Assembly (NCBI RefSeq): GCF_003932955.1
Contig: NZ_QOVY01000008.1
Span: 333 to 64,332, forward strand
DNA length: 64,000 nucleotides
Direction: 5' to 3'
Source of the DNA: Chryseobacterium sp. SC28
Lineage (GTDB): Bacteria > Bacteroidota > Bacteroidia > Flavobacteriales > Weeksellaceae
A program made the position numbers and the translations under genes. The first letter of the stretch is position 1; each line of letters opens with the position of its first letter. The notes below the pieces were generated by a model that saw only the letters and a program-made list of their open reading frames with translations, made no database searches and was not told where the DNA came from. Of the stretch, positions 29,622 to 63,408 are shown one piece after another.

Positions 29622-29632
29622 CGCTTTAAAAT

Positions 29633-29665
29633 AAAAAACTTTGTCGGCTCTATCCCGACAAAGTT
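29633..29665 (-). terminator. Rho-independent terminator of the 3-hydroxyacyl-CoA dehydrogenase gene
   Basis: Minus-strand arms AACTTTGTCGG and CCGACAAAGTT are followed by a T-rich run. It lies 31-63 bp after the stop codon at 29696. Confidence 0.88.
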
Positions 29666-29695
29666 ATATAATTGTGAGCCGCAATCTTCAAAAAT

Positions 29696-30589: not shown

Positions 30590-30691
30590 AATTTATTATT
30601 TTTATATGGAATTCACAAACCTTTAGGTTTCATATTTACTATTTTAAAAATTTTAATCTCAAATGCTACTCTAACTTCTAAAATCTAATTT

Positions 30692-31693
30692 CTACTCAGC
30701 TTTCTCAAGATAATAAAGAAACTCAGTCGTTTTCGAAGCTTTGTGATTTCGGTTGTCTTCCTTATCGGCTCGGAAACGCTGATACTCGGTTGTAAATATA
30801 TCATATTTCCCGAATTTGGAAAGTATCTTTTTGATATCGCTGTCCGCCATCAATCCTTCATTGTTGTAGCTGAGGAAAATATGCCTGAATTTTGCATTTT
30901 TGATAAGGTCTTCAAAGGTTTTCAGAACTTCCGGCTTGCTGCAGTATTTTGATTTTTGATAATCTCTGAGTCCTGTTTTTCCTTTCGGAGAGAAGTTGTC
31001 GTATTTTGCAATGGTGTTCAGAAGATGGTAGTTTGCGCCGTATTGGCGGGCGTTGTAGGGCGGATCGAGATAGAGAATATCGCCTGCAATTTTTTGGATT
31101 AATGAATTGCTGTCTTCATTATAAACGTCGTGTGAGTTTTCCGTAAATTCAAAAACGGAAGGAACAATTTCCAGTTTTTTCTGAGCAGATTTTTTAATTT
31201 GTTTTAAATATGCGCCATAAACCGAAGCCGTATTGGCCACTTTATCAGCAGCTTTCAAAAGCGAACAAAGCAGAAAATAGTATTGATCTTCAGTTATTTT
31301 TCCCGAAATTTTCCATTCTTCAATTTTTTGTCGGACAGCATCGATTTTTTTTCCATTTTCTTCTGAGAAATAAAGTCTTTCCGATTTCCCGTTTTCTGAA
31401 TATTCATCGCAGATAAAACCAGATTTCCCTTCGAGTGAATTCAATTCATTAATCAAATCTTCATAATCGAAATTTTGATGATTTCCGATATAATTTCGGT
31501 TCAGAACATAGCTGTAAAATTCAAAATCGTTGCTGATGACTTTCTTGGTTTCAGATTTGAAATGTCGTCCGACAATCCCGGTTCCTGCAAATAGATCGCA
31601 AAATGTTTTATTGGATAGATCTTTGTCAACAACTTCATAAACGGTTTGTTTGATGAAATCCGAAAGTTTGTTTTTGGAACCGATGTAATTCAT
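30692..31693 (-). CDS. D12-class DNA N6-adenine methyltransferase
   Basis: The 333-residue protein has the D12 order: MNYIGSKNKLSDFI at the N-terminus, then FAGTGIVG for SAM binding (residues 35-42), and the catalytic motif DPPYNARQY starting at Asp210. It methylates adenine in a short DNA site. The gene starts 3 bp after the stop of a small PD-(D/E)XK-like protein on the same strand, so the two are almost certainly a type II RM pair. The recognition site cannot be inferred. It differs in its early YIGSK motif from Dam-type housekeeping enzymes. Confidence 0.9.
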   Translation of the reverse strand: MNYIGSKNKLSDFIKQTVYEVVDKDLSNKTFCDLFAGTGIVGRHFKSETKKVISNDFEFYSYVLNRNYIGNHQNFDYEDLINELNSLEGKSGFICDEYSENGKSERLYFSEENGKKIDAVRQKIEEWKISGKITEDQYYFLLCSLLKAADKVANTASVYGAYLKQIKKSAQKKLEIVPSVFEFTENSHDVYNEDSNSLIQKIAGDILYLDPPYNARQYGANYHLLNTIAKYDNFSPKGKTGLRDYQKSKYCSKPEVLKTFEDLIKNAKFRHIFLSYNNEGLMADSDIKKILSKFGKYDIFTTEYQRFRADKEDNRNHKASKTTEFLYYLEKAE

Positions 31694-46070: not shown

Positions 46071-46222
46071 TTGTTGTCTGTATTTTATTTGAATGTGCAA
46101 AAGTAGTGAAATATGATGGAAGTTGGAAGTTGTATTTGGGCAATGGGAATGTGCTACACCCACAAACGCGGATATTTCGAAAAAGCCTTTGTCCTCGCCC
46201 TTCCATCATTGAAACAAATCCT

Positions 46223-46230
46223 TATCTTTG
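46223..46230 (+). promoter_or_regulatory. Probable -7 box (TATCTTTG) of the deoxyhypusine synthase-like gene
   Basis: It matches TAnnTTTG, 16 bp upstream of the ATG at 46247. No -33 TTG at normal distance was found. Confidence 0.5.
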
Positions 46231-46246
46231 CAGAAACTTAAAAATA

Positions 46247-47221
46247 ATGAGCAAACCGATTACTGAGTTCATAGAAAAATATTATCTGCACTTCAATGCT
46301 GCCACCTTGGTAGATGCTTCCAAAGCTTATGTAGCGCATTTGAAGGATGGCGGAAAAATGATGATCACGCTGGCCGGCGCTATGTCCACCGCAGAATTAG
46401 GAAAGATTCTGGCAGAGATAATTCGCCAAGGCAAAGTGGATTTCATTTCTTGCACCGGCGCCAACCTCGAGGAGGATTTGATGAATCTGGTAGCGCATTC
46501 TCACTACGAAAGGGTGCCGCATTACAGAGATCTGACGCCTCAGGAAGAGTGGGAATTGTTGGAAAAAGGACTAAATCGAGTGACTGATACCTGCATCCCG
46601 GAGGAAGAAGCCTTCCGAAGATTGCAGAAACATATCTACGAAATCTGGAAAGATGCTGATGAAAAAGGAGAACGATATTTTCCGCACGAGTATATGTACA
46701 AGATGGTTCTGTCCGGCGTTCTGGAACAATATTACGAGATCCCGCGAGAAAATTCTTGGATGATTGCTGCGGCAGAGAAAAATCTCCCAATCGTTGTTCC
46801 TGGATGGGAAGATTCTACGATGGGTAATATTTTCACATCCTATTGTATCAAAGGTGATTTGAAGTTTTCTACAATGAAATCGGGCATCGAATATATGGCC
46901 TATTTGGCGGATTGGTATCCAAAGAATTCCGGCGGCAAAGGCGTTGGATTTTTCCAAATTGGTGGCGGAATCGCGGGCGACTTTCCCATCTGCGTCGTTC
47001 CGATGCTGTATCAGGATATGGAGATGCACGATATTCCGTTTTGGAGTTATTTCTGTCAGATTTCCGATTCCACAACCTCGTATGGATCGTACTCCGGCGC
47101 AGTTCCAAACGAAAAAATAACTTGGGGGAAACTGGATGTCAAGACTCCGAAGTTCATTGTTGAAAGTGATGCAACCATCTGTGCGCCCTTGATGTTCAGC
47201 TATATTCTTGAAAATTCATAA
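46247..47221 (+). CDS. Deoxyhypusine synthase-like protein
   Basis: The 324-residue protein has the DHS fold: MMITLAGAMSTAELGKIL, FISCTGANLEEDLMNLVAH, FFQIGGGIAGDFPICVVP and ITWGKLDVKTPKF. Lys295 in ITWGK aligns with the catalytic Lys of eukaryotic DHS, and the NAD-site glycine-rich GGGIAGDF is intact. Bacteria lack eIF5A, so the substrate is probably a small polyamine; bacterial members have been linked to homospermidine synthesis. The ATG at 46247 is preferred over an upstream start at 46106, which would overlap the ABC-F gene. It is a single gene with a terminator. Confidence 0.85.
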   Translation: MSKPITEFIEKYYLHFNAATLVDASKAYVAHLKDGGKMMITLAGAMSTAELGKILAEIIRQGKVDFISCTGANLEEDLMNLVAHSHYERVPHYRDLTPQEEWELLEKGLNRVTDTCIPEEEAFRRLQKHIYEIWKDADEKGERYFPHEYMYKMVLSGVLEQYYEIPRENSWMIAAAEKNLPIVVPGWEDSTMGNIFTSYCIKGDLKFSTMKSGIEYMAYLADWYPKNSGGKGVGFFQIGGGIAGDFPICVVPMLYQDMEMHDIPFWSYFCQISDSTTSYGSYSGAVPNEKITWGKLDVKTPKFIVESDATICAPLMFSYILENS

Positions 47222-47712: not shown

Positions 47713-48267
47713 TTATGAGGGCTTATCCGCCGTCGCTTCTTGAGGCAAAGAGACGCTGTCGGGCGCTTCTTCCAGAGCTTTATCCAAAGCAAAAAGGGAT
47801 TCGTCTGTGGCATTGTCTCCTCCTGCAATTTTTAATTTATCGATCAATTCCAACGCCAGTTTTTCCTCCTCAATTTGTTCTTTTACGAACCATTGCATGA
47901 AATTCCACGTGGCCCAATCTTTTTCTTCTAAAGATAGATTGACTATTTCATAAATGGCAGTTGTGTTGTCTACTTCGTGTTCAAAAATTTTATTGAAAGC
48001 GTCTGTGAGATTTTGTGGATTTTGCGGTGGTGCGGGAATAGCTTCTATTGTCGGCACGCCTCCTCGGTCGAGGATATAGCGCATCAATTTGGTCATATGG
48101 TTTCGTTCTTCTTGCGCGTGTCGGTAGAGGAAATTGGCAATGCCGCCATAGCCTTCCCCATCGGCCCAGCAGCCATACGAAAGGAAAATTTGCGCCGCAT
48201 GCGCTTCTTTGGTCATTTGTTTAATGAGGGCTTGCTGCATTGGGTAGGATAGTCTGTTGGTATTCAT
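47713..48267 (-). CDS. ftnA: Non-haem ferritin
   Basis: The 184-residue protein is a four-helix ferritin: EAHAAQIFLSYGCWADGEGYGGIANFLYRHAQEERNH as separate segments gives the first iron-site Glu and the E-x2-H motif (EERNH). A second cluster includes WFVKEQIEEEKLALELIDKL with the E-x2-E of helix D. It stores iron as a 24-mer in the cytoplasm. The C-terminal tail of about 25 residues is acidic and probably disordered. The gene is transcribed alone and has its own terminator. Confidence 0.93.
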   Translation of the reverse strand: MNTNRLSYPMQQALIKQMTKEAHAAQIFLSYGCWADGEGYGGIANFLYRHAQEERNHMTKLMRYILDRGGVPTIEAIPAPPQNPQNLTDAFNKIFEHEVDNTTAIYEIVNLSLEEKDWATWNFMQWFVKEQIEEEKLALELIDKLKIAGGDNATDESLFALDKALEEAPDSVSLPQEATADKPS

Positions 48268-48519
48268 AATTCCACAATTTAATAAGGTATTTGGAGTTTT
48301 TTGAGAGCTGCCTCGCTCAATATTTTTTCAATTTTACTAAAAACGCAAATATTGCGCCAAAAATCGGGGAATCTTTAAGAAGCTATTTGCTGAATAATAA
48401 GTTAATAATGAAATTTTTCGGACTGATATTCAGTATATTAAACATTTGTTAATAAAAATTAACGCGATGTTAAAAAAATATATATATTTAGGACTACGAA
48501 AATAATACTTAAGAATATT

Positions 48520-51375
48520 ATGAGAAAAAATTATGTGAAATTACCATTGCTTATTGCTGCACTCTATTACGCTGGCAATTTGCATGCCCAATCCACACAG
48601 GACACCGTAACCCAAGAGCAAAAAATTGACGAGGTGGTTGTGATTGGATATGGATCTGCAAAAAAAGTAGATCTTACGAGCGCTATTACTACGGTAAAAG
48701 CTGCAGATATTGTGAAAACGCCTTCAGGACAAGCAACACAATCTTTGCAAGGCAAAGTAGCCGGTGTACAGATTGTTGCAAACGGGTCTCCGGGAGAATC
48801 GCCAAAGATGAATATTAGAGGTATTCACTCCTTGCAGGGAGATAATCAGCCTTTATACGTTGTAGATGGACTTTTTGTAAATAATATCGAATTCTTGAAT
48901 CCCAATGATATTCAGGATTTTACCATTTTAAAAGATGCCTCGGCGGCTTCAATTTATGGTGTTTTGGCTGCTAATGGGGTTGTGGTCATTACAACAAAAG
49001 GAGGCAACTACAACAGAAAGGCAAAAATTTCTTACGATACATATTATGGAGCGCAATATGCTAATAATGTAACAAAAATGGCTAATACAGAGCAATTTAC
49101 AAATTTTGCTCTGGAATCTGGTTCCCAGTTTGAAATTGATGCGATTGCAGCAGCTATTGCAAGATATGGCAGAAGCAGAACCAATCCCAATCTTCCCAAC
49201 GTCAATACCGATTGGTATGATGAGGCATTGAGAATCGCTCCCATCCAAAGTCATAGTCTGTCGGTAGATGGTGGTTCTGAAAAGGTTGCTTATTCATTAG
49301 GAGGTAACTTTTTTTCCCAAGATGGTATTCTAGATATGAAGAACGGCTATGAAAGATTTAATGTCAGAGCGAAAATTGATGCCAAAGCCACCGACTGGTT
49401 AAATGTTGGAGCGGTTATTAATTACACCCGGGGTGAAAAATATGATGACGAATCTTCGGCTTGGTCCCAAATCTATTATGCCGTTCCGGTAATGCCTGTC
49501 TTTGATCCCTTGTTTACGGAAGCCACCGTTCGCCCATACGCGGATGCTCAAATTTTAGGATACAGAGGTCACGATAACCCATTTGCTTTAATGGATAACG
49601 TGGATAAACTTGGTATTCAACGATCCACCAATTTTAATGCTTACGCAGAAGTTAGTTTACTGCCAAAGGAATTAATTTTTAAAACAACACTTTCTTATAA
49701 CAACAGAAATATAGATGAGCGTCTGATGGAGTTGCCATACTTTGTTAATAGTGAGAAAGGTTTCCAAAGAACATTAGATAACTCTACGATTACGCGTAAT
49801 AATGCCACTTACGAAGATTACATCTGGGATAATACACTTACTTGGAACCGATCTTTCGGGGAGCACGATATTACTGCAATGGCAGGAACATCTTTTGCTG
49901 ACCAATCTTTCAAGTATTTGACTATGAAAGGTAATTTCTTCGAGGGAAGTTTGTTTTCCCGAGATAATAAAAGCACTTGGTACATCAATAACACTGCTGA
50001 GGCCGGAAGGTTTACCTCGGAAGGTGCTCCATATAGATATTACAGAACCTCTTACTTTGGAAGATTATCATACAAATTTAAAGACCGATACATTGTTTAT
50101 GGAACACTTAGAAATGAGGGTTCAAATAAATTCCCAAATCAAAAAACTATTAACCTTCCTGCTGTGGGCGTGAGTTGGGTTCTTTCTGAAGAATCATTTT
50201 TGAAAAATGTAAGTTGGCTCAATCTTTTGAAAATTAGAGGTGGATGGGGTAAATTAGCTAATGACGGAATTAACGCAAGCAGACCAAGCACGGCATTCCC
50301 GGTTAATTCTGTATTTGCAGACACTTTCGTTCCGGCTTTTCAGTTTACCACTTATCAGGATGATGTGCGACGGGAATATACGGAAGAGACCAACATCGGC
50401 TTATCTACAGAATTTTTAAATAGACGATTGACCTTAGAGGGAGACTATTTCATAAAAGACACCAAAAGTTTGGTGATTCCCGTATTCCCGACAATAGGTA
50501 GCGAAGTAAGCTATAAAAATGTTGGAACCATGAGAAATAGAGGCTACGAAATTTCGGCCGGCTGGAGAGACAAAATAGGCGAAGATTGGGGTTACAGCAT
50601 CAGTGGGAATTTTAGCCATGTTGAAAATGAAATTACAGATTTGTACGGTCAGGCATTTATCGCAAGAGGATCGGGAGATTTTCCTCAGCGTTTAGTAGTC
50701 GGCCAGCCAATTGATGTGTTTTATGGCTATGAGCTCGATGGCGTTTATCAAAATCAAGCAGAAGTCAATGCAGATCCAACAGCAGTTTATGCCAACACCA
50801 ATCAGGGTGCAGGAACGGTAAAACCAGGTTATTTCAAATATAAAGATTTGAATGGAGATGGAAAGATTGATGATAGTGACAGAACATATCTTGGTGCTCC
50901 GGTTCCAACTTATTATTATGGAGGATCCATTGCCGTAAATTATAAAACGTGGGACCTTTCAGTAGCATTTTATGGGCAAGGAGGTAACGTAATTCTTAAT
51001 AGAGCCCGTGCAGAGGTTATCAGAACCACAGGAAGAAACGTGGACGCAGATTTTGCAATCAACCGTTGGCACGGAGAAGGAACTACCAATGAGTATGTTT
51101 CTTCCGAAGGTTACCGTCAAAGTTGGAACAATCAAAAACTTTCCGACTTCTGGTTGCAAAAAGGTGATTTCTTCAGGATCCAAAATATCCAGGTAGGTTA
51201 TACCTTGAAAACTGACGGCGTTCCAGAAATGAGATTTTCGCTCACAGCGGATAGACCGTATATGTGGACAAGAAGTAAAAACTTGATGAACCCAGAGGTT
51301 AATAATGATGGTGTTAATTTGGATCTTTATCCTACGCCGTCTGTAGTGTCTATCGGGTACAGCATAAAATTTTAA
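48520..51375 (+). CDS. SusC/RagA-family TonB-dependent outer membrane transporter
   Basis: The 951-residue protein starts with a signal peptide (MRKNYVKLPLLIAALYYAG). It has an early TonB box region (IDEVVVIGYGSAKK), the SusC plug (VKTPSGQATQSLQGKVAGVQIV, MNIRGIHSLQGDNQPLYVVDGL, DASAASIYGVLAANGVVVITTKGG) and a beta-barrel to the end (SVVSIGYSIKF). The N-terminal carboxypeptidase-like domain seen in many SusC is missing, so this is a compact form. It imports glycans cleaved at the surface, together with SusD and TonB. It begins the locus; the 230 bp in front holds no clear promoter. Confidence 0.95.
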   Translation: MRKNYVKLPLLIAALYYAGNLHAQSTQDTVTQEQKIDEVVVIGYGSAKKVDLTSAITTVKAADIVKTPSGQATQSLQGKVAGVQIVANGSPGESPKMNIRGIHSLQGDNQPLYVVDGLFVNNIEFLNPNDIQDFTILKDASAASIYGVLAANGVVVITTKGGNYNRKAKISYDTYYGAQYANNVTKMANTEQFTNFALESGSQFEIDAIAAAIARYGRSRTNPNLPNVNTDWYDEALRIAPIQSHSLSVDGGSEKVAYSLGGNFFSQDGILDMKNGYERFNVRAKIDAKATDWLNVGAVINYTRGEKYDDESSAWSQIYYAVPVMPVFDPLFTEATVRPYADAQILGYRGHDNPFALMDNVDKLGIQRSTNFNAYAEVSLLPKELIFKTTLSYNNRNIDERLMELPYFVNSEKGFQRTLDNSTITRNNATYEDYIWDNTLTWNRSFGEHDITAMAGTSFADQSFKYLTMKGNFFEGSLFSRDNKSTWYINNTAEAGRFTSEGAPYRYYRTSYFGRLSYKFKDRYIVYGTLRNEGSNKFPNQKTINLPAVGVSWVLSEESFLKNVSWLNLLKIRGGWGKLANDGINASRPSTAFPVNSVFADTFVPAFQFTTYQDDVRREYTEETNIGLSTEFLNRRLTLEGDYFIKDTKSLVIPVFPTIGSEVSYKNVGTMRNRGYEISAGWRDKIGEDWGYSISGNFSHVENEITDLYGQAFIARGSGDFPQRLVVGQPIDVFYGYELDGVYQNQAEVNADPTAVYANTNQGAGTVKPGYFKYKDLNGDGKIDDSDRTYLGAPVPTYYYGGSIAVNYKTWDLSVAFYGQGGNVILNRARAEVIRTTGRNVDADFAINRWHGEGTTNEYVSSEGYRQSWNNQKLSDFWLQKGDFFRIQNIQVGYTLKTDGVPEMRFSLTADRPYMWTRSKNLMNPEVNNDGVNLDLYPTPSVVSIGYSIKF

Positions 51376-51395
51376 CATATTTAAAATAAAAGACA

Positions 51396-52943
51396 ATGAA
51401 AAAATTAATATATATAAAAGCAATTTTGCTTGTTAGTATTATAGGTTTGACGGGATGCGACAGCAAACTGGATGAACCAATGGAACTTGATGCTGGTAAT
51501 AGTTATGACTACACCAGTGCAGAAGGTGCGAAAGGTGCTGTGATGGGTGCTTATGCAACTTTATCTGGTAAAAGAGCAGCTGACAACGGCGATACAGGCA
51601 TCGGCTGGGAACAGATTCCTTTGATCTCAGTACGAGGAGATGATGTTAATGCAGGTGGAAAAGGAGATCAAGCACCTTTTACCGACACTGATAATTATTC
51701 TTACGACCGCAGTTATTGGATGTACAACTCACTATGGGAAATTTGGTACCAAAGAATAGTACAAGTAACGGCTCAGATGAATGAATTGGAAAAATTCAGA
51801 GCGGGCGGGGTCAATTCGCAATTGATAGATCAATATATCTCAGAATGCAAAACCCTAAGAGCTTTCTATACCTTAGAAATTTCCAGGGTTTGGGGTAAAG
51901 TTATTGTCATGGAAGTTTTAGATCAAAGTCAATTGACCCTCCGGTCAAAAGATGATGTGATGAACTGGGTTTCTGCCCAAATGGATGAGGCAATACCCAA
52001 TCTGCCAGATATGAGGCCAAACCAGCGCACAGATATAAAAGGCGGTGTCACCAAATATACAGCTCTTGCCATAAAAGCTATGGCAAATCTGGAACTGAAA
52101 AACTATCAGGCCGTGGCAGACGCGACAGGTATAATTATCAATTCTAATAAGTTTTCGCTGACAGATGATTATTATAATTTGTTTAAAATACCCGGTAAAT
52201 TAGCCAATGAGAACTTGCTCGAGATTCAATATTCCGATTTTGGAGTGGGTACAGGAAATAACGTCAAACACCTGTGGGATTTTTATGGTCCTACAAGTTG
52301 GACACCTGCTGTTTCAGGAGCTAATGCAGGATGGGGATTCTATGAACCAAGCCTGAAATATATCAAATTCATGCTTGCCCGAAATGAGCAAAAACGTTTG
52401 GTAACCAGCGTGTTGTTTACGCCAGACGGCATTGCGAAGATAAAAGAAGATCCAAACTTTGCAACTTTACCATCATGGGTTTCCAATGTTACACCAAGTA
52501 ATGATGTGATTAATAATTCCGCAAGAGCATTATTCTTTAGTGGTAAGCATTATTTGCCTTCAAATCAGTTAATTCCTGGCCGAAATGATTATGGTTCTAA
52601 TAAAAATTACATTATAATGCGGTATTCAGAAATTTTATTGATGTATGCCGAAGCTGTCGCAAGAGGAGCTAATCCATCTGCAGGAACTGCTGTGGCTGCC
52701 GTAAATACCGTAAGAAATAGAGCAGGACTATCCAGCTTGGCATCGGTAACGGCTGATCAGGTAATGGACGAAAAATATGCAGAATTAGGATTGGAATGGG
52801 GTATTCGGTATTACGATATGGTAAGACTAGGTAATACTGCAGCATTGAGCTATGACGGCAGAACCTTCAGTATGGATAAACAATTCTTGCCTTATCCATT
52901 AGCTCAGATAGAAAAAATCCAAGCATTAGAAAGTAATCAATAG
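51396..52943 (+). CDS. SusD/RagB-family lipoprotein
   Basis: The 515-residue protein is a lipoprotein (IIGLTGC, Cys21) with SusD features: TSAEGAKGAVMGAYATLSG, the N-terminal TPR-like helices, and the C-terminal IIMRYSEILLMYAEAVARGANP and EWGIRYYDMVRLG. It binds glycan at the outer leaflet and acts as a lid on SusC, 20 bp upstream. It is followed by the LamG gene after 11 bp. Confidence 0.95.
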   Translation: MKKLIYIKAILLVSIIGLTGCDSKLDEPMELDAGNSYDYTSAEGAKGAVMGAYATLSGKRAADNGDTGIGWEQIPLISVRGDDVNAGGKGDQAPFTDTDNYSYDRSYWMYNSLWEIWYQRIVQVTAQMNELEKFRAGGVNSQLIDQYISECKTLRAFYTLEISRVWGKVIVMEVLDQSQLTLRSKDDVMNWVSAQMDEAIPNLPDMRPNQRTDIKGGVTKYTALAIKAMANLELKNYQAVADATGIIINSNKFSLTDDYYNLFKIPGKLANENLLEIQYSDFGVGTGNNVKHLWDFYGPTSWTPAVSGANAGWGFYEPSLKYIKFMLARNEQKRLVTSVLFTPDGIAKIKEDPNFATLPSWVSNVTPSNDVINNSARALFFSGKHYLPSNQLIPGRNDYGSNKNYIIMRYSEILLMYAEAVARGANPSAGTAVAAVNTVRNRAGLSSLASVTADQVMDEKYAELGLEWGIRYYDMVRLGNTAALSYDGRTFSMDKQFLPYPLAQIEKIQALESNQ

Positions 52944-52954
52944 ACATAAATACA

Positions 52955-54019
52955 ATGAAAAATATAATAAAATTAACTCTTGCTGCTGTTATTTTATTAA
53001 CAGTATCGATAGCTTGTTCAGACGGATATATCGATGATATTAGTCATGTCGCACCGGGAGAGGATGTGGCGGCGCCTGTTATCACCATAAATAGTCCAGC
53101 GGGAAATGTTACTATTCCTTTTACCGATGTCACTACAGATTTCAATTTTGATTTTAAAGTTTCTGATGATATTGAAATTGCTTATATTGAAATTCTTGTA
53201 GATGGCACATTTCAGAAATCCTATAATAGTTTTGTAGATTATAGAAACTATGCCGATATTTATACCAAAAACTTGGGTTTAGGTAATCACACCTTTACAG
53301 TCAATGCTAAAGATCTTACAGGTAAGACTTCCACAAAAACAGTAGCATTTAATATTGACAATAAATATACTGCTTTGTATGGCGAAAAATTTTATCTTCC
53401 TTTCTTCGCAGGCAACGTATTTACTGAGTTGTTAAGTGGGGCTAATCCTACAGTTGTTGGTAATCCATCGACTATTGCAGACGGTAAATCCGGTGCTGCT
53501 TACCAAGGTGCGACAGATTCATATCTTACGTTCCCACTTAGTGGATTATATAGTTCAGATGGAATAAGTTTTACTTTTTGGTATAAGATAAATGCTACAC
53601 CAGATCGGGCTGGTATTATTACTATCAATGATAACTCAGACAACACCGATGAGAACCGAAATGGAGGTCTTAGATTGTTCAGAGAAGGTAGTGCAAGTTC
53701 GCAAACCATCAAAATGAATGTTGGTACAGGCGGAGGCGAGTCTTGGAACGACGGGGGTAATTTACCTGTTGACGGCAATTGGGTACACGTGGGTGTTACT
53801 GTTTCGCCCACAGAATCTAAAATTTATTTCAACGGTGTACTGCAAAGAACTGCAACCTACACCACTTTTGATTTTTCTTCAAGTTCTACAATCACGATTG
53901 CTTCCGGAGCGCCTTCATTTACATACTGGAGTCACTTGTCAGACCTTAGTCTCATCGATGAATTGAGGATTTACGATAAAGCTCTGGACGCTGCAGAAAT
54001 AAGCGCCACTATGCAATAA
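52955..54019 (+). CDS. LamG/Concanavalin-like surface glycan-binding lipoprotein
   Basis: The 354-residue protein is a lipoprotein (VSIAC, Cys21). An Ig-like beta domain follows (residues about 45-145; VSDDIEIAYIEILVDG, GNHTFTVNAKDLTGKT). The C-terminal LamG/concanavalin domain comes next (DGISFTFWYKINATPD, GNWVHVGVTVSPTESKIYFNG, IDELRIYDKALDAAEI). The laminin-G-like fold binds sugars. The position right after SusD is that of a SusE/F-like surface binding protein, and the product is expected at the cell surface. It ends with a hairpin at 54046. Confidence 0.85.
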   Translation: MKNIIKLTLAAVILLTVSIACSDGYIDDISHVAPGEDVAAPVITINSPAGNVTIPFTDVTTDFNFDFKVSDDIEIAYIEILVDGTFQKSYNSFVDYRNYADIYTKNLGLGNHTFTVNAKDLTGKTSTKTVAFNIDNKYTALYGEKFYLPFFAGNVFTELLSGANPTVVGNPSTIADGKSGAAYQGATDSYLTFPLSGLYSSDGISFTFWYKINATPDRAGIITINDNSDNTDENRNGGLRLFREGSASSQTIKMNVGTGGGESWNDGGNLPVDGNWVHVGVTVSPTESKIYFNGVLQRTATYTTFDFSSSSTITIASGAPSFTYWSHLSDLSLIDELRIYDKALDAAEISATMQ

Positions 54020-54045
54020 TTAGTACCAATATTTAGTTAATAATG

Positions 54046-54079
54046 AAAACACTTTATGGCTTGTTCATAAAGTGTTTTT
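54046..54079 (+). terminator. Hairpin terminator or attenuator inside the PUL
   Basis: Arms AAAACACTTTATG and CATAAAGTGTTTT with a 7-base loop are followed by a short T-run. It lies between the LamG gene and the first GH144-type gene on the same strand, so it may lower expression of the downstream enzymes relative to SusCD. Confidence 0.78.
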
Positions 54080-54114
54080 CATAACATCCAAATCAATACA
54101 CAAAAGCAAGTATT

Positions 54115-55494
54115 TTGAAAAATATAATTTTAGCATCGGTTGTCTTCTTGTTATACAATTGTTCAAACGACAGCAATTGGGATCCAAATGATATTTTGGT
54201 AAATCCACCTGAGGAGCCGGCAACCGTTTACACAGACGCCCAGATCACCGAAATGGTGCAGAAAGATGCCCTCAAATACTTTTGGGACTTCGCACAAACC
54301 GATTCCAAACTTGCCCGAGAAAGATACCACACAGATGATCCTAATAATGATGCCAATACCGTCACCACAGGCGGCTCAGGCTTCGGATTGATGACCATTT
54401 TGGTGGGAATCAAGAACGGTTATGTTGCCCAGCCGGAAGCCGTTTCCAGATTGACGACCGCGCTTAATTTTTTACAAAATGCCAACCGATTTCACGGTGC
54501 CTGGCCACATTGGATGAATGGTACCAACGGCAACGTCATCCCATTCAGCACCAAAGATAACGGAGGAGATCTGGTAGAAACGGCTTTCCTGGCGCAAGGT
54601 CTAATCTGCGTGAGAGAGTTTTTCAAAAACTCCACCAACGCTTCAGAATTAGCATTAGCTCAAAAAGCTGACGAACTGTGGAAAGGCATAGAATGGAATT
54701 GGTACACACAAGGCCAGAATGTCTTGTACTGGCACTGGTCTCCTACCTACAATTTTGATATGAATATGAAATTGCAAGGCTTCGACGAAACCTTAATCAC
54801 TTATGTACTGGCCGCAGCATCTCCCAATTATTCAATTCCCAAATCGGTTTACCAAAATGGATGGGCAAGAAACGGAGGCATCAAATCGTCGGGTACGCAA
54901 TATGGTATTCCGCTCATCGTCAACCATAACGGTGCATCGGGAACGGTCGGTCCCATGTTTTGGTCGCATTATTCATTTCTTGGTCTCAACCCCAAAGGCC
55001 TTTATGACGACTATGTCAATTATGGCGACGTTACTACCAATCACGCCAAAATTATGTATCAATATTGTGTCACCAATCCAAAAGGATTCTCAGGCTATAA
55101 TGCCAAAAGTTGGGGTCTCACAGCCAGCTACTCCCGAAATGCAGATGGAACCACAGGTTATGCTGCCCATCAGCCCAATAACGATTTGGGCGTAATTTCG
55201 CCCACGGCAGCGATATCCGACATGCCCTACACACCAACGGAAAGTATGAATTTTCTGAGATTTCTTTACAATGAAAATTATTCCAAGTATATCGGTGTGG
55301 CCGGTCCTTACGACGCCTATTCCATTCAATACAATTGGGTGACGCCCAGATATTTGGCCATAGATCAAGGCACCATAGCACCAATGATCGAAAACGGTAA
55401 AACCCAATTTCTGTGGAATCTCTTTATGAATGCACCCGACGTAAGACAAGGTTTGGTAAAATTAGGATTCCATTCCTCAACATATGGCTTTTAA
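54115..55494 (+). CDS. GH144-type glycoamylase-domain lipoprotein 1
   Basis: The 459-residue protein starts at TTG 54115 with a lipoprotein signal (FLLYNC, Cys16). It then shows the glycoamylase-like fold of GH144: DALKYFWDFAQ, LARERYH, TTGGSGFGLMTILVG, NRFHGAWPHWMNG, GGDLVETAFLAQGLICVREFF, and the C-terminal AIDQGTIAPMIENGK. GH144 is the family of bacterial endo-beta-1,2-glucanases. It would cleave glucan at the surface or in the periplasm. No better start exists. The neighbours (SusC/SusD, GH3) fit a beta-1,2-glucan locus. Confidence 0.82.
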   Translation: MKNIILASVVFLLYNCSNDSNWDPNDILVNPPEEPATVYTDAQITEMVQKDALKYFWDFAQTDSKLARERYHTDDPNNDANTVTTGGSGFGLMTILVGIKNGYVAQPEAVSRLTTALNFLQNANRFHGAWPHWMNGTNGNVIPFSTKDNGGDLVETAFLAQGLICVREFFKNSTNASELALAQKADELWKGIEWNWYTQGQNVLYWHWSPTYNFDMNMKLQGFDETLITYVLAAASPNYSIPKSVYQNGWARNGGIKSSGTQYGIPLIVNHNGASGTVGPMFWSHYSFLGLNPKGLYDDYVNYGDVTTNHAKIMYQYCVTNPKGFSGYNAKSWGLTASYSRNADGTTGYAAHQPNNDLGVISPTAAISDMPYTPTESMNFLRFLYNENYSKYIGVAGPYDAYSIQYNWVTPRYLAIDQGTIAPMIENGKTQFLWNLFMNAPDVRQGLVKLGFHSSTYGF

Positions 55495-55511
55495 TTTAAC
55501 TTAAAAATTCT

Positions 55512-56903
55512 ATGAAAAATATTTTTAGACTATCGTTCATTGCTGTTAGCCTGTTAATTTCTTGCAAGAATTATCAAGGTTCGCAGCAAGCACAGAAAGA
55601 TTCTGAATCCACAACGAAAAAACTAACGGACACGCAACTGATGGACAAAGTCCAAAGCGACGCCCTCAAATACTTCTGGGACTTTGCAGAACTCCATTCA
55701 ATGCTGGGAAGAGAGCGCTATCACGAAGATAATATTTATCCGCAAAACGATAAGCACGTGGTTACCACGGGCGGATCGGGCTTTGGATTAATGACCATTC
55801 TGGTTGGGGTCGATAGGAAATTTATCCCCCGTGCCGAAGCAGTGAAAAGATTAAATCACATCGCCGATTTTCTTAGCAAAGCAGACCGTTTCCACGGTGC
55901 GTGGCCGCATTGGATGAATGGCGAAACCGGCAAAGTAGTCCCTTTTGGCAAGAAAGATAATGGCGGAGACCTCGTAGAAACTGCATTCCTTACCCAAGGA
56001 ATCATCTGCGTTCGAGAATATTTCAAAAACGGAAATGCCGAAGAAAAAGCACTCGCTGCCAAAATGGATCAACTTTGGAAAGGTGTCGAATGGAATTGGT
56101 ACACCAAAGGCGGACAAAAAGTGCTCTACTGGCATTGGTCGCCAACCTATGGCTGGGAAATGAATTTCCCGCTCGAAGGCTACAACGAATGCCTGATTAC
56201 CTACGTTCTGGCAGCCTCATCCCCAGATTATTCCATCGATTCCGAAACCTATAACAAAGGGTGGACACGAAATGGCACTTATACGACAGACAAAACCAAA
56301 TACGGATTGCCTCTTTACGTCAAACACAATTATGCAGAAGAATTTGGCGGTCCATTATTCTGGTCCCAATACTCATATTTAGGTTTAGATCCGCGTGGAC
56401 TTTCAGATCAATACGTGAAAAATTATTGGGATCTCAACCGAAATCAAGTCCTGATAGATTACAAATATTGTCTGGAAAATCCCTTCAAATACAAAGGATA
56501 TTCAGAAAAATATTGGGGACTTACAGCCGGCTACACGAGGAACAAAGATGGTTCCGTCGGTTATGCCGCTCACCAACCAATAAAAGAAGATTTGGGCGTG
56601 ATTGTGCCGACTGGCGCGCTCAGCTCTATGCCCTATACCCCAAAAGAATCGATGGCTTTCCTGAGATTTTTATACGAAGAAAAACCAAAATTTGTCGGAA
56701 GTGCAGGTCCTTATGATGCAACGTCTATCCATTTTGACGACTGGTTTACGCCACGCTATCTGGCTATCGATCAGGGAACTATCGCGCCGATGATCGAGAA
56801 TTATCGCACCGGACTGCTCTGGAATCTCTTCATGAATGCACCCGAAGTGAGAAACGGACTCAAAAAAATCGGGTTTAAGTCCACAGAACATCAGATTCAA
56901 TAA
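55512..56903 (+). CDS. GH144-type glycoamylase-domain lipoprotein 2
   Basis: The 463-residue protein is a lipoprotein (SLLISC, Cys18) and a paralogue of the previous product: DALKYFWDFAEL, GRERYHED, TTGGSGFGLMTILVG, DRFHGAWPHWMNG, GGDLVETAFLTQGIICVREYF, and AIDQGTIAPMIEN. The identity between the two is high along the catalytic core, with differing N-terminal linkers. It begins 17 bp after the first copy, so they are co-transcribed. The duplicates may differ in chain-length preference or location. It precedes the structured element at 56968. Confidence 0.82.
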   Translation: MKNIFRLSFIAVSLLISCKNYQGSQQAQKDSESTTKKLTDTQLMDKVQSDALKYFWDFAELHSMLGRERYHEDNIYPQNDKHVVTTGGSGFGLMTILVGVDRKFIPRAEAVKRLNHIADFLSKADRFHGAWPHWMNGETGKVVPFGKKDNGGDLVETAFLTQGIICVREYFKNGNAEEKALAAKMDQLWKGVEWNWYTKGGQKVLYWHWSPTYGWEMNFPLEGYNECLITYVLAASSPDYSIDSETYNKGWTRNGTYTTDKTKYGLPLYVKHNYAEEFGGPLFWSQYSYLGLDPRGLSDQYVKNYWDLNRNQVLIDYKYCLENPFKYKGYSEKYWGLTAGYTRNKDGSVGYAAHQPIKEDLGVIVPTGALSSMPYTPKESMAFLRFLYEEKPKFVGSAGPYDATSIHFDDWFTPRYLAIDQGTIAPMIENYRTGLLWNLFMNAPEVRNGLKKIGFKSTEHQIQ

Positions 56904-57222
56904 ACAAAAAGTATTATCTTTAAACACTAAATTTTATTGTTTCGTTTGGAGACTTTAATATTTTTTGGGAGCTTGATCCCGCTGTCCGCTATATCTTTTT
57001 TGTTTTTAGAACGTTTCTCAGTTCGATTGAAAGTTTAACACCAAAAAACAAAAAAGGATGCCGCTGCCATCGGGGCTATGGGTTGAGTCACAGAATGAAA
57101 TCCTCAACTGAAAAGAAGTAGCGCGCGTACGCCGGAGGAGCGCTCCGTAAAAAAAATTCAGACGATGCAACAAATAAACGCGTTAGAGAGTATTAGAAAA
57201 AACAAATCAAAAATCCAATAAA
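56904..57222 (+). other. 319-bp gap without a gene
   Basis: It holds the structured element at 56968-57078. After it comes a short GC-rich stretch with the palindrome GGAGCGCTCC (57137-57146), and then AT-rich DNA up to the esterase start. No plausible small gene or clear TAnnTTTG promoter was seen. Confidence 0.6.
56968..57078 (+). ncRNA. Structured intergenic element, copy 2 (Flavo-1-like candidate)
   Basis: On the plus strand this 111-bp element starts GGGAGCTTGATCCCGC and continues CCGCTATATCTTTTTTG. Its long A/T arms CTTTTTTGTTTTT and AAAAACAAAAAAG pair perfectly, and it ends AAAAGGATGCCGCTGCC with ATCGGGGCTA. It shares a 16-base run and the closing 25-odd bases (one difference) with the copy at 12011-12098, while the central loop differs. 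It is 64 bp after the GH144-2 stop, same strand. The conserved ends with a variable, length-changing stem suggest RNA structure. Confidence 0.62.
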
Positions 57223-57942
57223 ATGAATTTAAGACAGAAATTACTTGCTTTTTTACTTTTAATTTGCATTTTTCCTTTTGCCACAGCGCAGGAAATCAAA
57301 TCCGAGTTCAACAAAGAAGTAAAGATTCAAGCCAAATTATCCTATATCTTGGATATGCCGCCAAATGTTAAATCCAAAATACCGTTAATTGTATTTCTTC
57401 ACGGTTCGGGAGAAAGAGGCACTAATTTGGAAATGATTAAAGTTCACAGTCCTTTTACGTACAAAAGTTTGATCCCGGAACCCGTTGCCATCTTGGCGCC
57501 TCAATGTCCGGAAAACACTTGGTGGGATACCACTCAAATCTATTTTCTGATTAAGGAAATCTCGGAAAAGTACAAAATCGATAAAGCAAGAATCTACCTC
57601 ACAGGTCTGTCGATGGGCGGCTGGGGAACTTTGAAACTGGCAGGCGAGCATCCGGAAATGTTTGCCGCAGTTGCCGCAATCTGTGCTCCAACAGACCGCA
57701 TGATGCAGGCCACTATTCAGAATTACAAAGATCTCAATATCAAATTATTCCACGGCGGGATGGACGATGTTGTTCTTCCGGAAAATGCTTTCAACTTTTA
57801 TCAAAAACTGCATCCCATCAACCCCAAAGCAGAACTCACCATTTTCCCGAACGATAATCACAATTCTTGGGATTCCACTTACTCCGATCCCAAATTGTGG
57901 CAATGGATGCTGTCTCAATCGATCATTGAAGTTAAAAATTAA
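57223..57942 (+). CDS. Alpha/beta-hydrolase esterase-like protein, secreted
   Basis: The 239-residue protein has a signal peptide (LLAFLLLICIFPFATAQ) and the esterase fold: PLIVFLHGSGERG, the nucleophile elbow GLSMGG with Ser130, an acid at Asp181 or Asp182 (HGGMDDVVL) and His213 in NDNHNSWD. This is the polyhydroxybutyrate depolymerase/feruloyl-esterase-like group. In this PUL it may remove acyl groups from the glucan or be an unrelated esterase. It starts 320 bp after GH144-2 and 14 bp before the GH3 gene, and is probably co-expressed with it. Confidence 0.82.
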   Translation: MNLRQKLLAFLLLICIFPFATAQEIKSEFNKEVKIQAKLSYILDMPPNVKSKIPLIVFLHGSGERGTNLEMIKVHSPFTYKSLIPEPVAILAPQCPENTWWDTTQIYFLIKEISEKYKIDKARIYLTGLSMGGWGTLKLAGEHPEMFAAVAAICAPTDRMMQATIQNYKDLNIKLFHGGMDDVVLPENAFNFYQKLHPINPKAELTIFPNDNHNSWDSTYSDPKLWQWMLSQSIIEVKN

Positions 57943-57956
57943 AATATATAATTTAT

Positions 57957-60284
57957 ATGAAAAAATTTGCAATCCTGGCTGCATTGGCACTTTCGCCATT
58001 CTTTTTGGCGCAGAATATTATATCCAAACCTGCCCAGTCTTACCAGTCGGCTCCATATCAATCCAAGAAAAAAGCTTTTATCGACAATCTGATTTCCAAA
58101 ATGACTTTGGATGAGAAAATCGGACAGCTCAATCTGCCTTCTTCAGGCGATTTTACAACGGGGCAGGCACAGAGCTCCGACATCGGTAAAAAAGTGGAAC
58201 AAGGCTTGGTTGGCGGATTATTTAATATCAAAGGGGTTGATAAAATCCGCGAGGTTCAGAAAGTGGCAGTAGAAAAAAGCCGACTGAAGATTCCAATGAT
58301 TTTCGGAATGGACGTGATCCACGGCTATGAAACCTCATTTCCAATTCCGTTGGGCTTAGCCTCGTCTTGGGACACAGATTTGATCCAGCGCTCTGCTCAG
58401 ATTGCTGCTCAGGAAGCCACTGCCGACGGCATCAACTGGACCTTCTCGCCGATGGTCGATATTTCCAGAGATCCGCGGTGGGGCAGGGTTTCCGAAGGTG
58501 CCGGCGAAGATCCCTATTTGGGAAGCGAGATCGCAAAAGCGATGGTTTATGGCTATCAAGGGGACGATCTTGCCAAGAAAAACACTATGCTCGCTTGCGT
58601 AAAACATTTTGCGCTTTATGGTGCTGCGGAAGGTGGTAGAGATTATAATACGGTGGATATGAGTCATTTGCAAATGTACAACACCTATTTTCCACCTTAC
58701 AAAGCGGCTGTTGAAGCTGGCGCGGGCTCGGTGATGGCTTCGTTCAATGAGATAGACGGCATTCCGGCAACGGGAAACAAATGGCTGCTAACGGATGTTT
58801 TAAGAAAACAATGGAATTTCAAAGGTTTTGTGGTCACAGATTACACCGGGATCAATGAGATGATTGACCACGGAATGGGCGATTTGCAAGAAGTGTCTGC
58901 TTTAGCTATTAATGCCGGAGTCGATATGGATATGGTGGGCGAGGGTTTTTTGAAAACTTTGAAAAAATCGATTTCCGAAGGAAAAGTAACGGAACAAGCA
59001 GTGACCGATGCTGCAAGAAGAATTCTGGAAGCCAAATACGACCTCGGTCTTTTTGATGATCCTTATAAATATACCGATTCCAAAAGAGCCCAGAGAGAGG
59101 TTTTCAGTCCAAAAAATCTGGAGGCAGCCAAAACGATTTCTTCTCAATCCATGGTTCTTCTTAAAAATAACAAGCAGGTTCTTCCGTTGCAGAAATCCGG
59201 AACCGTGGCCGTCATCGGGCCTTTGGGCGACAATGCCGTGAACATGCCCGGTACTTGGAGCGTTGCCGCGAAGCACGCCAATTCTATTTCGCTGCTGAGA
59301 GGTCTTAAAGAATCTGTTGGAAAAAATGTGAAATTTCTGTATGCAAAAGGAAGCAACATCTACGAATCTGCAGAAATGGAAGAAAAAGTCTCGATGTTTG
59401 GCAAATCGGCGGGCAGAGATAATCGGCCGGCAGATCAGATAAGAAAAGAAGCGATAGCCATTGCCAACCAAGCAGACGTCGTCCTTCTTGCCATCGGAGA
59501 AAGTGCCGAAATGAGCGGCGAATCTAGTTCCAGAACCGATATCGGAATTCCGGAAACTCAAAAAGAATTGTTGAGAGAACTTAAAAAAACCGGCAAACCA
59601 ATCGTTATCGTTTTATTCACAGGTCGTCCGTTGGTTTTGACGGAAGAATCCCAGCTGGCAGATGCTATTCTGAATGTTTGGTTCCCGGGAAGCATGGCTG
59701 GTTACGCAATTTCGGACGTACTGTACGGAAAAGTAAATCCGTCCGGAAAGTTACCGATGACGTTCCCAAGAAGCGTGGGCCAAGTTCCGCTTTATTACAA
59801 TGCGAAAAATACCGGTCGCCCGTTGAGTTTGGAAAATACGGAAAAATGCAAGTTCGAGAAATTCCGTTCCAACTATCTGGACGAGTGCAACACACCGCTT
59901 TATCCTTTCGGATTTGGATTGAGTTATACGACCTTTGGATATTCTGATGTTTCGGTCAGCAATGCAAAACCGACAGGAAACACCGCGATCGAGGCCAGTG
60001 TCACGTTGACGAATAATGGAAAATACGACGGCGCTGAGGTGGTTCAGCTATACATCCGAGATTTGGTTGGCAGCATCACAAGACCTGTCAAAGAGCTGAA
60101 AGGTTTCCAAAAAGTATATTTGAAAGCAGGCGAAAGCAAAAAAGTAACTTTCAAAATTTCGCCCGAAGATCTTAAATTCTACAACAATCAATTGAAGTAC
60201 GATTGGGAAGCCGGCGATTTCGATATTATGATTGGCAGCAATTCTCACGATGTCAAAACAACAAGAGTGAACTGGAGCAAATAG
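57957..60284 (+). CDS. GH3 beta-glucosidase (BglX-type)
   Basis: The 775-residue protein has a signal peptide (ILAALALSPFFLAQ) and three GH3 parts. The TIM barrel has KHFALYGAAEGGRDYN and the nucleophile FVVTDYTGINEM with Asp295. The alpha/beta sandwich follows (AIGESAEMSGESSSR), and then the C-terminal fibronectin-like domain (EVVQLYIRDLVGSITRPVKEL). It releases glucose from beta-linked glucosides in the periplasm, probably from the oligomers of beta-1,2-glucan made by the GH144 enzymes. The linkage preference is not fixed by the motif. It ends the locus. Confidence 0.9.
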   Translation: MKKFAILAALALSPFFLAQNIISKPAQSYQSAPYQSKKKAFIDNLISKMTLDEKIGQLNLPSSGDFTTGQAQSSDIGKKVEQGLVGGLFNIKGVDKIREVQKVAVEKSRLKIPMIFGMDVIHGYETSFPIPLGLASSWDTDLIQRSAQIAAQEATADGINWTFSPMVDISRDPRWGRVSEGAGEDPYLGSEIAKAMVYGYQGDDLAKKNTMLACVKHFALYGAAEGGRDYNTVDMSHLQMYNTYFPPYKAAVEAGAGSVMASFNEIDGIPATGNKWLLTDVLRKQWNFKGFVVTDYTGINEMIDHGMGDLQEVSALAINAGVDMDMVGEGFLKTLKKSISEGKVTEQAVTDAARRILEAKYDLGLFDDPYKYTDSKRAQREVFSPKNLEAAKTISSQSMVLLKNNKQVLPLQKSGTVAVIGPLGDNAVNMPGTWSVAAKHANSISLLRGLKESVGKNVKFLYAKGSNIYESAEMEEKVSMFGKSAGRDNRPADQIRKEAIAIANQADVVLLAIGESAEMSGESSSRTDIGIPETQKELLRELKKTGKPIVIVLFTGRPLVLTEESQLADAILNVWFPGSMAGYAISDVLYGKVNPSGKLPMTFPRSVGQVPLYYNAKNTGRPLSLENTEKCKFEKFRSNYLDECNTPLYPFGFGLSYTTFGYSDVSVSNAKPTGNTAIEASVTLTNNGKYDGAEVVQLYIRDLVGSITRPVKELKGFQKVYLKAGESKKVTFKISPEDLKFYNNQLKYDWEAGDFDIMIGSNSHDVKTTRVNWSK

Positions 60285-60498: not shown

Positions 60499-63408
60499 AT
60501 GCAAGGAAAAGGACTCGTTACATTAGTTGCCATCGTTCTTGGATTAATTTGCCTTAATGAGCTTCTGCCATCTTTCTATGCCAACAAAATAGAGAATGAA
60601 GCAAAGGCCATCGCAGGGGAAAATCCGGTGAAATACCAAGCTGAGCTCGCAAGACTTTCTAAGGACACTCTTAATCTCGGTTTTACAAAACTGGATTACA
60701 CGTCTGCAAAACAGAAAGAGATGAAACTCGGACTGGACTTGAAAGGTGGTATCAACGTACTATTGGAGATCAACCAAAGAGATTTGGTAAACGATCTTAG
60801 CAATTACTCTACAAATGCTACTCTGATAGAAGCGCTCAACAGAACCGACAAAGTGCAGAAAAACTCGAGCAAGCAGTACATCGAGGACTTCTTCATACAG
60901 TTTGAAGCCGTCAACAAAGAAAAAGGAACCAACCTGAAACTGGCAGATCCAGAAATATTTGGAAACACCAATCTCTCTGAGATCAAATTCAATACGCCGG
61001 ACGAGCAAGTCAAAAACATTGTCAGAAAAAAAATTGACGCCTCGGTCGGGACAGCTTACGAAGTTCTCAGAACCCGTATCGACAAAATGGGTGTGACGCA
61101 ACCCAACGTCCAGAGAGTTCCCGGCACCGGAAGGATTTTGGTGGAAATGCCCGGAATCAAAGATATAGATCGGGTAAAAAAAATGCTCCAGACTTCTGCA
61201 AAACTACAGTTTTGGGAAGTGCAGCTGGCGCAGGAAGTCGTTCCCTATTTCTCTCAACTCGATCAGCTGGTGAAAACCAAAGGCGATTCTATCGGCGTCG
61301 CAAAATCGACGAATCTGATGAACTTGATTCAGCTGAATTCCACACCCGGAAATGCCGTGGCGAATGTAAAATTGTCCGACACCGCCGTTGTGAATAAGTT
61401 GCTTAATTGTGAAATTGCCATCAAAGCAAGACCTATTAATTTAAAATATACCCAGTTTATGTGGGGCTACAAGCCCGAATCTACTTCTCCCAACAGCTTG
61501 GTTCTCTACGCCATTCGCGGAAACATTACGCAGAAAGCACCGGTGGACGGTGCCGTAGAATCGGCAAACATCAACTACGACCAGCTGGGGCGTATCGTGG
61601 TAGATATGCAGATGGACTCCCAAGGCGCGCGCGACTGGAAAGCCATGACGGAGAAAAATAAAGGAAAAGTGGTGGCGGTAACTTTGGACAACAGAGTTTA
61701 CACAGCTCCTACAGTAAACGAGGTGATTCCCAACGGAAGAACCCAAATCTCGGGAAATTTCACTCAGGAAGAAGCGAAGGACTTAGTGGACGTTCTGGGC
61801 GCCGGCAAATTACCCGCCGGGGCAAAAATCGTGCAGGCAGAGGTGGTGGGCCCGTCTTTGGGTGCCGAATCCATCAATGCCGGAATTACTTCTTTTCTCA
61901 TTGCTTTTGCCATCATCATCGTTTACATCGTTTTCTATTACGGCGGTGCCGGCATATTTGCCGTTATTGCGATGATTATCAACTTGTTCTATATCTTCGG
62001 AATTATGGATTCGCTGGACGCGACCTTGACGCTTCCCGGTATCGCAGGTATCGTATTATCGATGGCGCTGGCCGTAGATGCGAACGTTATTATTTACGAA
62101 AGAACCAAAGAAGAACTCTTCCGCGGAAAAAATATTCTGGACGCTTATAAAGATGGTTTCAAGCACGCAATTTCTGCCATCCTCGATGGTCACGCGACCA
62201 CTTTCATTACCGCTTTGATTCTTTATATCTTCGGTACGGGACCTATCAAAGGTTTTGCAGTGACGCTTATGATTGGTTTGATAATGACCTTATTCACCTC
62301 GGTTTTATTATCGAGAATAATGATTTTTAGCAGACTGAGTAAGGGTAAGTCACTTTCTGTCTGGACGGCACCGACTAAGAATCTCTTCCGCAATACTTGG
62401 ATCGATTTTATCGGAAAAAGAAAATATGCCTACTATTTTTCGGGAATTTTGATGGTCATTTCAATCGCTTCCATCGCTATCAACGGTTTCAAATACGGTA
62501 TCGATTTTACCGGCGGGCGCAACTACGTTGTCCGATTTGAAAAACCCGTGGATGCCAATAAGATAGAGGAGAATATTGCAAAACTGATGCAGACCAATGA
62601 TGGCAAAAACAACTCCATCGAAGCTAAAACTTTCGGGAATTCTTCGCAATTGAAAATCACCACAGACTATTTGGTTGATGACGAGTCTCTTGCAGCGGAT
62701 CAAACCGTGGAACGAAAAATTTACGAAGGGGTTAAATCCGAATTGCCCGCCGGGATGAGTCTGGCCGAGTTCAAATCTGCAGACAAAGGTAATGCCGGTA
62801 TTATTTCCTCAAGCAAAGTGGGGCCAACGGTGGCAGACGACATCCAGACGGGCGGTATGTTGGCCGTTGCCGCTTCTTTATTAGGAATTTTCATCTATAT
62901 CTTGTTGAGATTCGACAAGTGGCAATTCTCACTCGGAGCAGTTGCTGCGCTCTTCCACGATACGGTAGTAATCCTGGGGGTTTATTCGTTATTCTACAAG
63001 GTAATGCCTTTCAATATGGAGATCAATCAAGATTTCATTGCTGCGATACTTACGGTCATAGGATATTCCATCAACGATACGGTCATCATCTTCGACAGAA
63101 TCCGCGAATACCTTCGCGAGAAAAAAGCGTTGACACTGGCAGGATTGTTTGATGATTCCATTTCCAGCACGATTGGTAGAACCTTCAACACGTCTTTCAC
63201 CACGATTTTGGTCATCCTTGCGATTTTCATTTTCGGTGGCGACAATTTGAGAGGCTTTATGTTCTGTTTGTTGCTCGGCATCGGATTCGGAACCTATTCA
63301 TCGATTTTTATAGCCTCGGCTACGGCTTATGACTTCCTGCGAGGAAAGAAAAAAGAAGACAAAGTCACCGGAAAATCGTCATCTGAAAAGTTGGTGGCTG
63401 TCAAATAA
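60499..63408 (+). CDS. secDF: Protein translocase subunit SecDF (fused)
   Basis: The 969-residue protein is a SecD-SecF fusion with two RND-like sets of helices. The SecD part has an N-terminal helix (LVTLVAIVLGLICLNEL), the motif KLGLDLKGGINVLLEI, the large periplasmic P1 domain, and SMALAVDANVIIYERTKEE. The SecF part has FKYGIDFTGGRNYVVRF and VIGYSINDTVIIFDRIREYLREK. It uses proton flow to finish protein export through SecYEG. The fusion is normal in Bacteroidota. The gene lies between the PUL and tatA, with a terminator after it. Confidence 0.96.
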   Translation: MQGKGLVTLVAIVLGLICLNELLPSFYANKIENEAKAIAGENPVKYQAELARLSKDTLNLGFTKLDYTSAKQKEMKLGLDLKGGINVLLEINQRDLVNDLSNYSTNATLIEALNRTDKVQKNSSKQYIEDFFIQFEAVNKEKGTNLKLADPEIFGNTNLSEIKFNTPDEQVKNIVRKKIDASVGTAYEVLRTRIDKMGVTQPNVQRVPGTGRILVEMPGIKDIDRVKKMLQTSAKLQFWEVQLAQEVVPYFSQLDQLVKTKGDSIGVAKSTNLMNLIQLNSTPGNAVANVKLSDTAVVNKLLNCEIAIKARPINLKYTQFMWGYKPESTSPNSLVLYAIRGNITQKAPVDGAVESANINYDQLGRIVVDMQMDSQGARDWKAMTEKNKGKVVAVTLDNRVYTAPTVNEVIPNGRTQISGNFTQEEAKDLVDVLGAGKLPAGAKIVQAEVVGPSLGAESINAGITSFLIAFAIIIVYIVFYYGGAGIFAVIAMIINLFYIFGIMDSLDATLTLPGIAGIVLSMALAVDANVIIYERTKEELFRGKNILDAYKDGFKHAISAILDGHATTFITALILYIFGTGPIKGFAVTLMIGLIMTLFTSVLLSRIMIFSRLSKGKSLSVWTAPTKNLFRNTWIDFIGKRKYAYYFSGILMVISIASIAINGFKYGIDFTGGRNYVVRFEKPVDANKIEENIAKLMQTNDGKNNSIEAKTFGNSSQLKITTDYLVDDESLAADQTVERKIYEGVKSELPAGMSLAEFKSADKGNAGIISSSKVGPTVADDIQTGGMLAVAASLLGIFIYILLRFDKWQFSLGAVAALFHDTVVILGVYSLFYKVMPFNMEINQDFIAAILTVIGYSINDTVIIFDRIREYLREKKALTLAGLFDDSISSTIGRTFNTSFTTILVILAIFIFGGDNLRGFMFCLLLGIGFGTYSSIFIASATAYDFLRGKKKEDKVTGKSSSEKLVAVK

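Follow-up and report, generated by a model that had tools for sequence, protein, structure and literature searches.

Composition of the locus

Does a run of import and glycan-cleaving genes in Chryseobacterium sp. SC28 serve the use of beta-1,2-glucan, and which of its parts are held constant among close relatives? The locus lies on contig C47 of a 2.74 Mb genome (99.98% complete), within a stretch of 64,000 nucleotides that was analyzed as a whole and is referred to as the window; relatives' loci and trees place the host nearest to Epilithonimonas. The initial annotation had described genes for SusC, SusD, a LamG protein, two GH144 proteins, an esterase and a GH3 enzyme as one run, and we found all seven intact and on the forward strand at 48520-60284. 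In order, they encode a SusC-type TonB-dependent importer of a lineage here called type I (48520-51375; TIGR04056, 672 bits), a SusD-like glycan-binding lipoprotein (51396-52943; PF07980), a LamG lipoprotein that is probably a surface glycan-binding protein (52955-54019; PF13385, with an additional Ig-like Pfam match below threshold), GH144A (54115-55494; PF10091, 220 bits; TTG start codon), GH144B (55512-56903; PF10091, 255 bits), a secreted alpha/beta-hydrolase that is a putative esterase on decorated glucan (57223-57942; PF00326/PF02230, best solved match the esterase 3doh) and a GH3 beta-glucosidase (57957-60284; BglX, 950 bits). Intergenic gaps from susC through the GH3 gene are 20, 11, 95, 17, 319 and 14 nt, and a dispersed repeat element with 26 matches in the genome precedes the esterase gene (56935-57130).

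A susC-susD pair next to genes for glycan-active enzymes is the arrangement by which a polysaccharide utilization locus (PUL) is recognized. The grouping also recurs: a search based on GH144B returned 78 loci, and among the 72 having at least 4.5 kb downstream a GH3 gene was present in 71 and the esterase gene in 58, a linkage that excludes chance for the grouping of these genes. Pfam and NCBIfam searches identified a deoxyhypusine synthase family protein (46220-47221) and SecDF (60499-63408) as neighbors of the locus, and a 184-aa protein encoded on the opposite strand (47713-48267) is ferritin-like by reading of its sequence. In relatives, a glucose/sorbosone dehydrogenase-like gene (L006:14821-16179, reverse strand) lies between the GH3 and SecDF genes; the window does not have it. 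Elsewhere in the window, the reverse strand encodes a D12-class adenine DNA methyltransferase (30692-31693) and, near it at 28287-29621, a 444-aa protein that matched nothing in Pfam; the two, spanning 28287-31693, may be restriction-modification genes.

Two GH144 enzymes in tandem and a third elsewhere

In a search of solved structures, both tandem proteins matched CpSGL (5gzh/5gzk) far above any other function, GH144A with 486 bits and 54% identity and GH144B with 554 bits and 58% identity, in alignments spanning approximately 410-440 residues. In CpSGL, E211 is the general acid and E142 the most plausible base, and mutants of D135, D139 and E142 lose most of their activity (PMC12102758). 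All four acids are retained in GH144A, GH144B and GH144C, an unlinked third GH144 protein. The annotation would have failed had the two proteins fallen outside GH144; their similarity to CpSGL and the four acids place them inside it. A glucoamylase reading, suggested by the Pfam name "Glycoamylase", was rejected, as this name is a mere label and the solved relatives are beta-1,2-glucanases. CpSGL of Chitinophaga pinensis is the founder of GH144, and in comparison with it the locus has a tandem pair, differing predicted locations and a short insertion that CpSGL lacks.

GH144C (730 aa; contig C8, L004:8312-10504 in G000) is encoded alone among housekeeping genes. Together with GH144A and GH144B it makes up the complete set of PF10091 proteins in the host genome. 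It aligns end to end, with 839 bits, to the exo-type BDI_3064 of Parabacteroides distasonis, which we take to be structure 5z06 (Shimizu et al. 2018), but it is unlinked to the locus. GH144C and BDI_3064 have in common an insertion of about 17 residues, and GH144A and GH144B are without it, so that the tandem pair is more likely endo-acting than exo-acting and both members are probable endo-beta-1,2-glucanases; exo action of either was disfavored on this ground. GH144C, on the other hand, may release sophorose units. A literature search on BDI_3064, with partial coverage, returned no match.

Predicted cell locations

Surface lipoproteins of Bacteroidota carry an acidic export signal right after the lipobox cysteine (PMC5080379). 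The window SusD has acidic residues past this cysteine, and the LamG protein carries CSDGYIDD after its lipobox. Among orthologs, the mean count of D and E at positions +2 to +8 is 3.1 for SusD (n = 54), 3.2 for LamG (n = 11), 1.1 for GH144A (n = 28) and 0.4 for GH144B (n = 45), with K frequent at +2 in the latter; the lipobox was found automatically, which failed for some rows, and the location calls rest on short N-terminal sequences. These counts suggest that SusD and LamG are probably on the surface, that GH144A, with a weak export signal, is possibly there as well, and that GH144B, without an acidic signal, probably faces the periplasm. Surface digestion had been considered plausible for both GH144 lipoproteins; it stays so for GH144A, on its weak signal, but GH144B looks periplasmic, and a surface location of both is disfavored by their N-termini. 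The esterase and the GH3 enzyme have apparent non-lipoprotein signal peptides, read by eye from the sequence.

A utilisome comprises SusC, SusD, a surface binding lipoprotein and a surface enzyme (PMC7618045). Candidates for these four roles are encoded together here, with GH144A, given its weak signal, as a possible surface enzyme, and the best solved match of the window SusC is 8aa4, from the dextran utilisome of the same work. The two B. thetaiotaomicron utilisomes described there, for levan and for dextran, have the same four roles but differ from the present set in glycan, binding-protein domain and enzyme family, and a complex of the four components here would be putative.

Importer genes differ at a site with a constant enzyme core

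We found at least four SusC/SusD lineages at this site among 23 genus genomes, in 7, 14, 1 and 1 of them, with the pieces from broken assemblies or frames (G002, G008, G014) assigned to types by judgement. Type I, the lineage of the window, is present in G000, G001, G003, G007, G009, G014 and G016, and type II in the group of 14. Two more SusCs, found in G019 and G004, are each approximately 33-35% identical to either main type. Both main types together occur in none of the 23. In G008, the type II susC is split into two overlapping frames (L086:3000-5812), reflecting a frameshift or an assembly error. Within Epilithonimonas, the GH144B-esterase-GH3 core is fixed at the same site while SusC varies. 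The LamG and GH144A genes come with type I and are absent from Epilithonimonas type II loci; G019 has GH144A and no LamG match, and G004 has neither. In the SusC tree type I forms one clade, with nearest relatives in Christiangramia, Mesonia, Salegentibacter and Fulvivirga.

Compared with type II loci, the upstream genes and promoter of the window are alike in DNA sequence, similarity is lost near 48667 (around susC codon 49) and it returns around the start of GH144B. The segment that appears to have been replaced between species thus covers susC from about codon 50, susD, LamG and GH144A (48667-55511, forward strand, edges approximate), and the promoter, an inverted repeat, the first ~49 codons of susC and the enzyme core are retained across types. 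The first ~49 SusC residues are common to the types, whereas the remainder is only ~35% identical. For susC nt 1-147, mean identity is 83.5% in pairs of type I with type II and 85.2% in pairs within type I; over the next 150 nt the values are 53% and 76%, respectively. One illustration is the pair formed by L012, of type I, and L040, of type II, which are 99% identical over susC nt 1-147 and 56% over the following 150 nt, 96% identical at the start of GH144B and 79% over the rest of it, and 84% identical in the upstream gene. In its 5' junction tract, L012 resembles L040 more than it does any of its type I relatives, and such near-identical junctions are what recombination would leave.

When type I is mapped onto the SecDF, GH3 and GH144B trees, 4-5 changes are required, and well-supported branches force at least three (SecDF), four (GH3) and two (GH144B) changes, although these event counts are not firm because the neighboring genes may have recombined themselves. 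The pattern suggests that the importer genes form a cassette exchanged among related species that keep the same switch and digestive enzymes. It is also conceivable that the SusC/SusD sets differ because old duplicates were retained or lost by lineage, and the patchy tree pattern, with its uncertain counts, could include losses. We consider this unlikely, given that no genome has both main types, that deeply different SusCs have common promoter DNA and first codons, and that identity between L012 and L040 falls so abruptly at both junctions.

For the exchanged cassette, we tentatively propose a specific course, as one possibility: Epilithonimonas would swap whole glycan-import modules at one site by homologous recombination, with one breakpoint inside the first ~49 susC codons and another where GH144B begins, and a single glucan would be used in different ways. 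The type I module (SusC, SusD, LamG and GH144A) would cut at the surface, and type II (SusC and SusD alone) would take in small or cyclic glucans whole and cut only in the periplasm. Breakpoints at these positions would hold the promoter, the candidate operator and the periplasmic enzymes constant. As the type I segment encodes candidates for all four utilisome roles, the moving part would be the outer-membrane apparatus and the constant part is probably periplasmic. With a degree of polymerization of about 17-25, cyclic beta-1,2-glucans are small, which makes type II import before cutting plausible. We found no direct published precedent for SusC/SusD exchange, in a partial coverage of the literature, outside which one may exist.

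Candidate regulatory elements

The inverted repeat TTAAC-N5-GTTAA (48459-48473), 46 nt before susC, is a candidate operator. Its exact pattern has a single copy in the host genome, compared with 23 for a reversed control pattern; once a single mismatch is tolerated, it is no longer rare within the window. With a variable center, it lies 44-48 nt upstream of susC in four SusC types, namely, among the matches listed, in those of G000 to G013 with an intact susC start and upstream DNA, and in G019. The contig ends at this site in G002 and G012, and one arm of the repeat is degenerate in L014. No regulator gene adjacent to the locus was found within the window, and a scan for the sigma-70 consensus was uninformative (45 sites, 33 expected). 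Folding predicted a terminator-like hairpin between the import genes and the enzymes, before GH144A (54043-54082, forward strand). Hairpins occur at the matching place in relatives, after LamG in type I and after susD in Epilithonimonas type II, and could yield more importer than enzyme.

Substrate and source of the glucan

The best solved relatives of the GH3 enzyme are 3u48 (JMB19063), 5tf0 and 5xxl/5xxn, among them GH3 structures with beta-1,2 activity, and 5xxn is a B. thetaiotaomicron enzyme (PMC8546341). Another counterpart is CsBGL, a GH3 enzyme of Chryseobacterium scophthalmum with 775 aa and a signal peptide of 18 residues, which acts on sophorose and laminaribiose and hardly on cellobiose or gentiobiose (PMC8546341). 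In a comparison by length and named active-site residues, as opposed to the full CsBGL sequence, the window enzyme is likewise 775 aa long and matches nine of ten site residues at a constant offset of +18, including the nucleophile D277 and the acid/base E504, so that CsBGL is probably its Chryseobacterium ortholog. The exception is H463, which is F in the window enzyme and H in Chryseobacterium and Kaistella GH3s adjoining GH144. This link supports the earlier suggestion that the GH3 enzyme finishes sophoro-oligosaccharides, yet it alone cannot fix the substrate, since CsBGL-type enzymes also cleave laminaribiose.

Overall, we consider it very probable that the locus is a Bacteroidota PUL for beta-1,2-glucan, which we infer to be its substrate in vivo. 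In the proposed pathway, SusD and the LamG lipoprotein would hold glucan at the surface, where GH144A would cut long chains, and SusC with SusD would import the pieces, driven by TonB. GH144B would cut further in the periplasm, where the esterase may strip ester groups from the glucan; the GH3 enzyme would free glucose there, and GH144C may contribute sophorose units.

The target might instead be another beta-glucan, laminarin for instance, or one of mixed type such as a beta-1,3/1,2-glucan, with GH144 activity being only a part. The laminaribiose activity of CsBGL would suit such a target, and some related GH144 loci add GH43, GH97 or sulfatase genes, from which it follows that not every GH144 locus faces plain glucan. 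However, the locus is without GH16, GH17, GH30 or another beta-1,3-glucanase and its two GH144 enzymes match CpSGL, and we give such a target no more than a slim chance.

For a beta-1,2-glucan target, the remaining question is the source. A genome search of the host found neither MdoG/OpgG nor GH94, the latter as in cyclic glucan synthases. The organism thus probably makes no beta-1,2-glucan by a known route, and the glucan is probably foreign and would come from other bacteria, in keeping with the initial annotation of a consumer of bacterial glucan. Recycling of the organism's own glucan is very improbable: a PF10091 protein is present in every genus genome searched (23/23), as housekeeping predicts, but the missing synthesis genes and the position of the enzymes inside a SusC/SusD import locus speak against it. 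In a partial coverage of the literature, we found no work on cyclic or osmoregulated glucans with PULs.

Relation to known systems

GH144 loci for beta-1,2-glucan count as one of the abundant kinds of PUL in Bacteroidetes, and their marine versions include a sulfatase (PMC6499787). A Salegentibacter GH144 locus in our set likewise encloses a sulfatase with a CGPSR motif (L076:13506-15152). An exonuclease/phosphatase-family protein (L043:17722-18561) and GH43 proteins (L063:12150-13955, L069:8222-9970), encoded in or beside GH144 loci, are a possible sign of decorated glucans. Published GH144 PULs (PMC6499787), including a Maribacter cluster (PMC8072126) and the B. thetaiotaomicron cluster with BT_3567, resemble the present locus in SusC/SusD, one or two GH144 enzymes, GH3 and the proposed beta-1,2-glucan target. 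In contrast to them, our locus has no sulfatase, has an esterase and a LamG lipoprotein, and varies in its import genes at one site between close relatives. Alternative SusC/SusD-like pairs at one locus are also known from the RagAB allele types of Porphyromonas gingivalis, within one species and with variation of up to ~30% (ragA) or ~48% (ragB) (PMC11817032). Here, identity between SusC types is only ~35%, and further genes travel with them. The GH144 PUL type is thus already published, and the unexpected part is evolutionary, namely the varying importer module.

Producers of beta-1,2-glucans include rhizobia, Brucella, Xanthomonas and further Proteobacteria, and widespread consumers therefore bear on what becomes, in soil and water, of these glucans with signaling and osmotic roles. 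A swapped import module against a fixed enzyme core amounts to a natural experiment, with at least four importers in one genus under one promoter and with one enzyme set. In such a system, the respective shares of importer and surface enzyme in the use of a single glycan could be tested directly.
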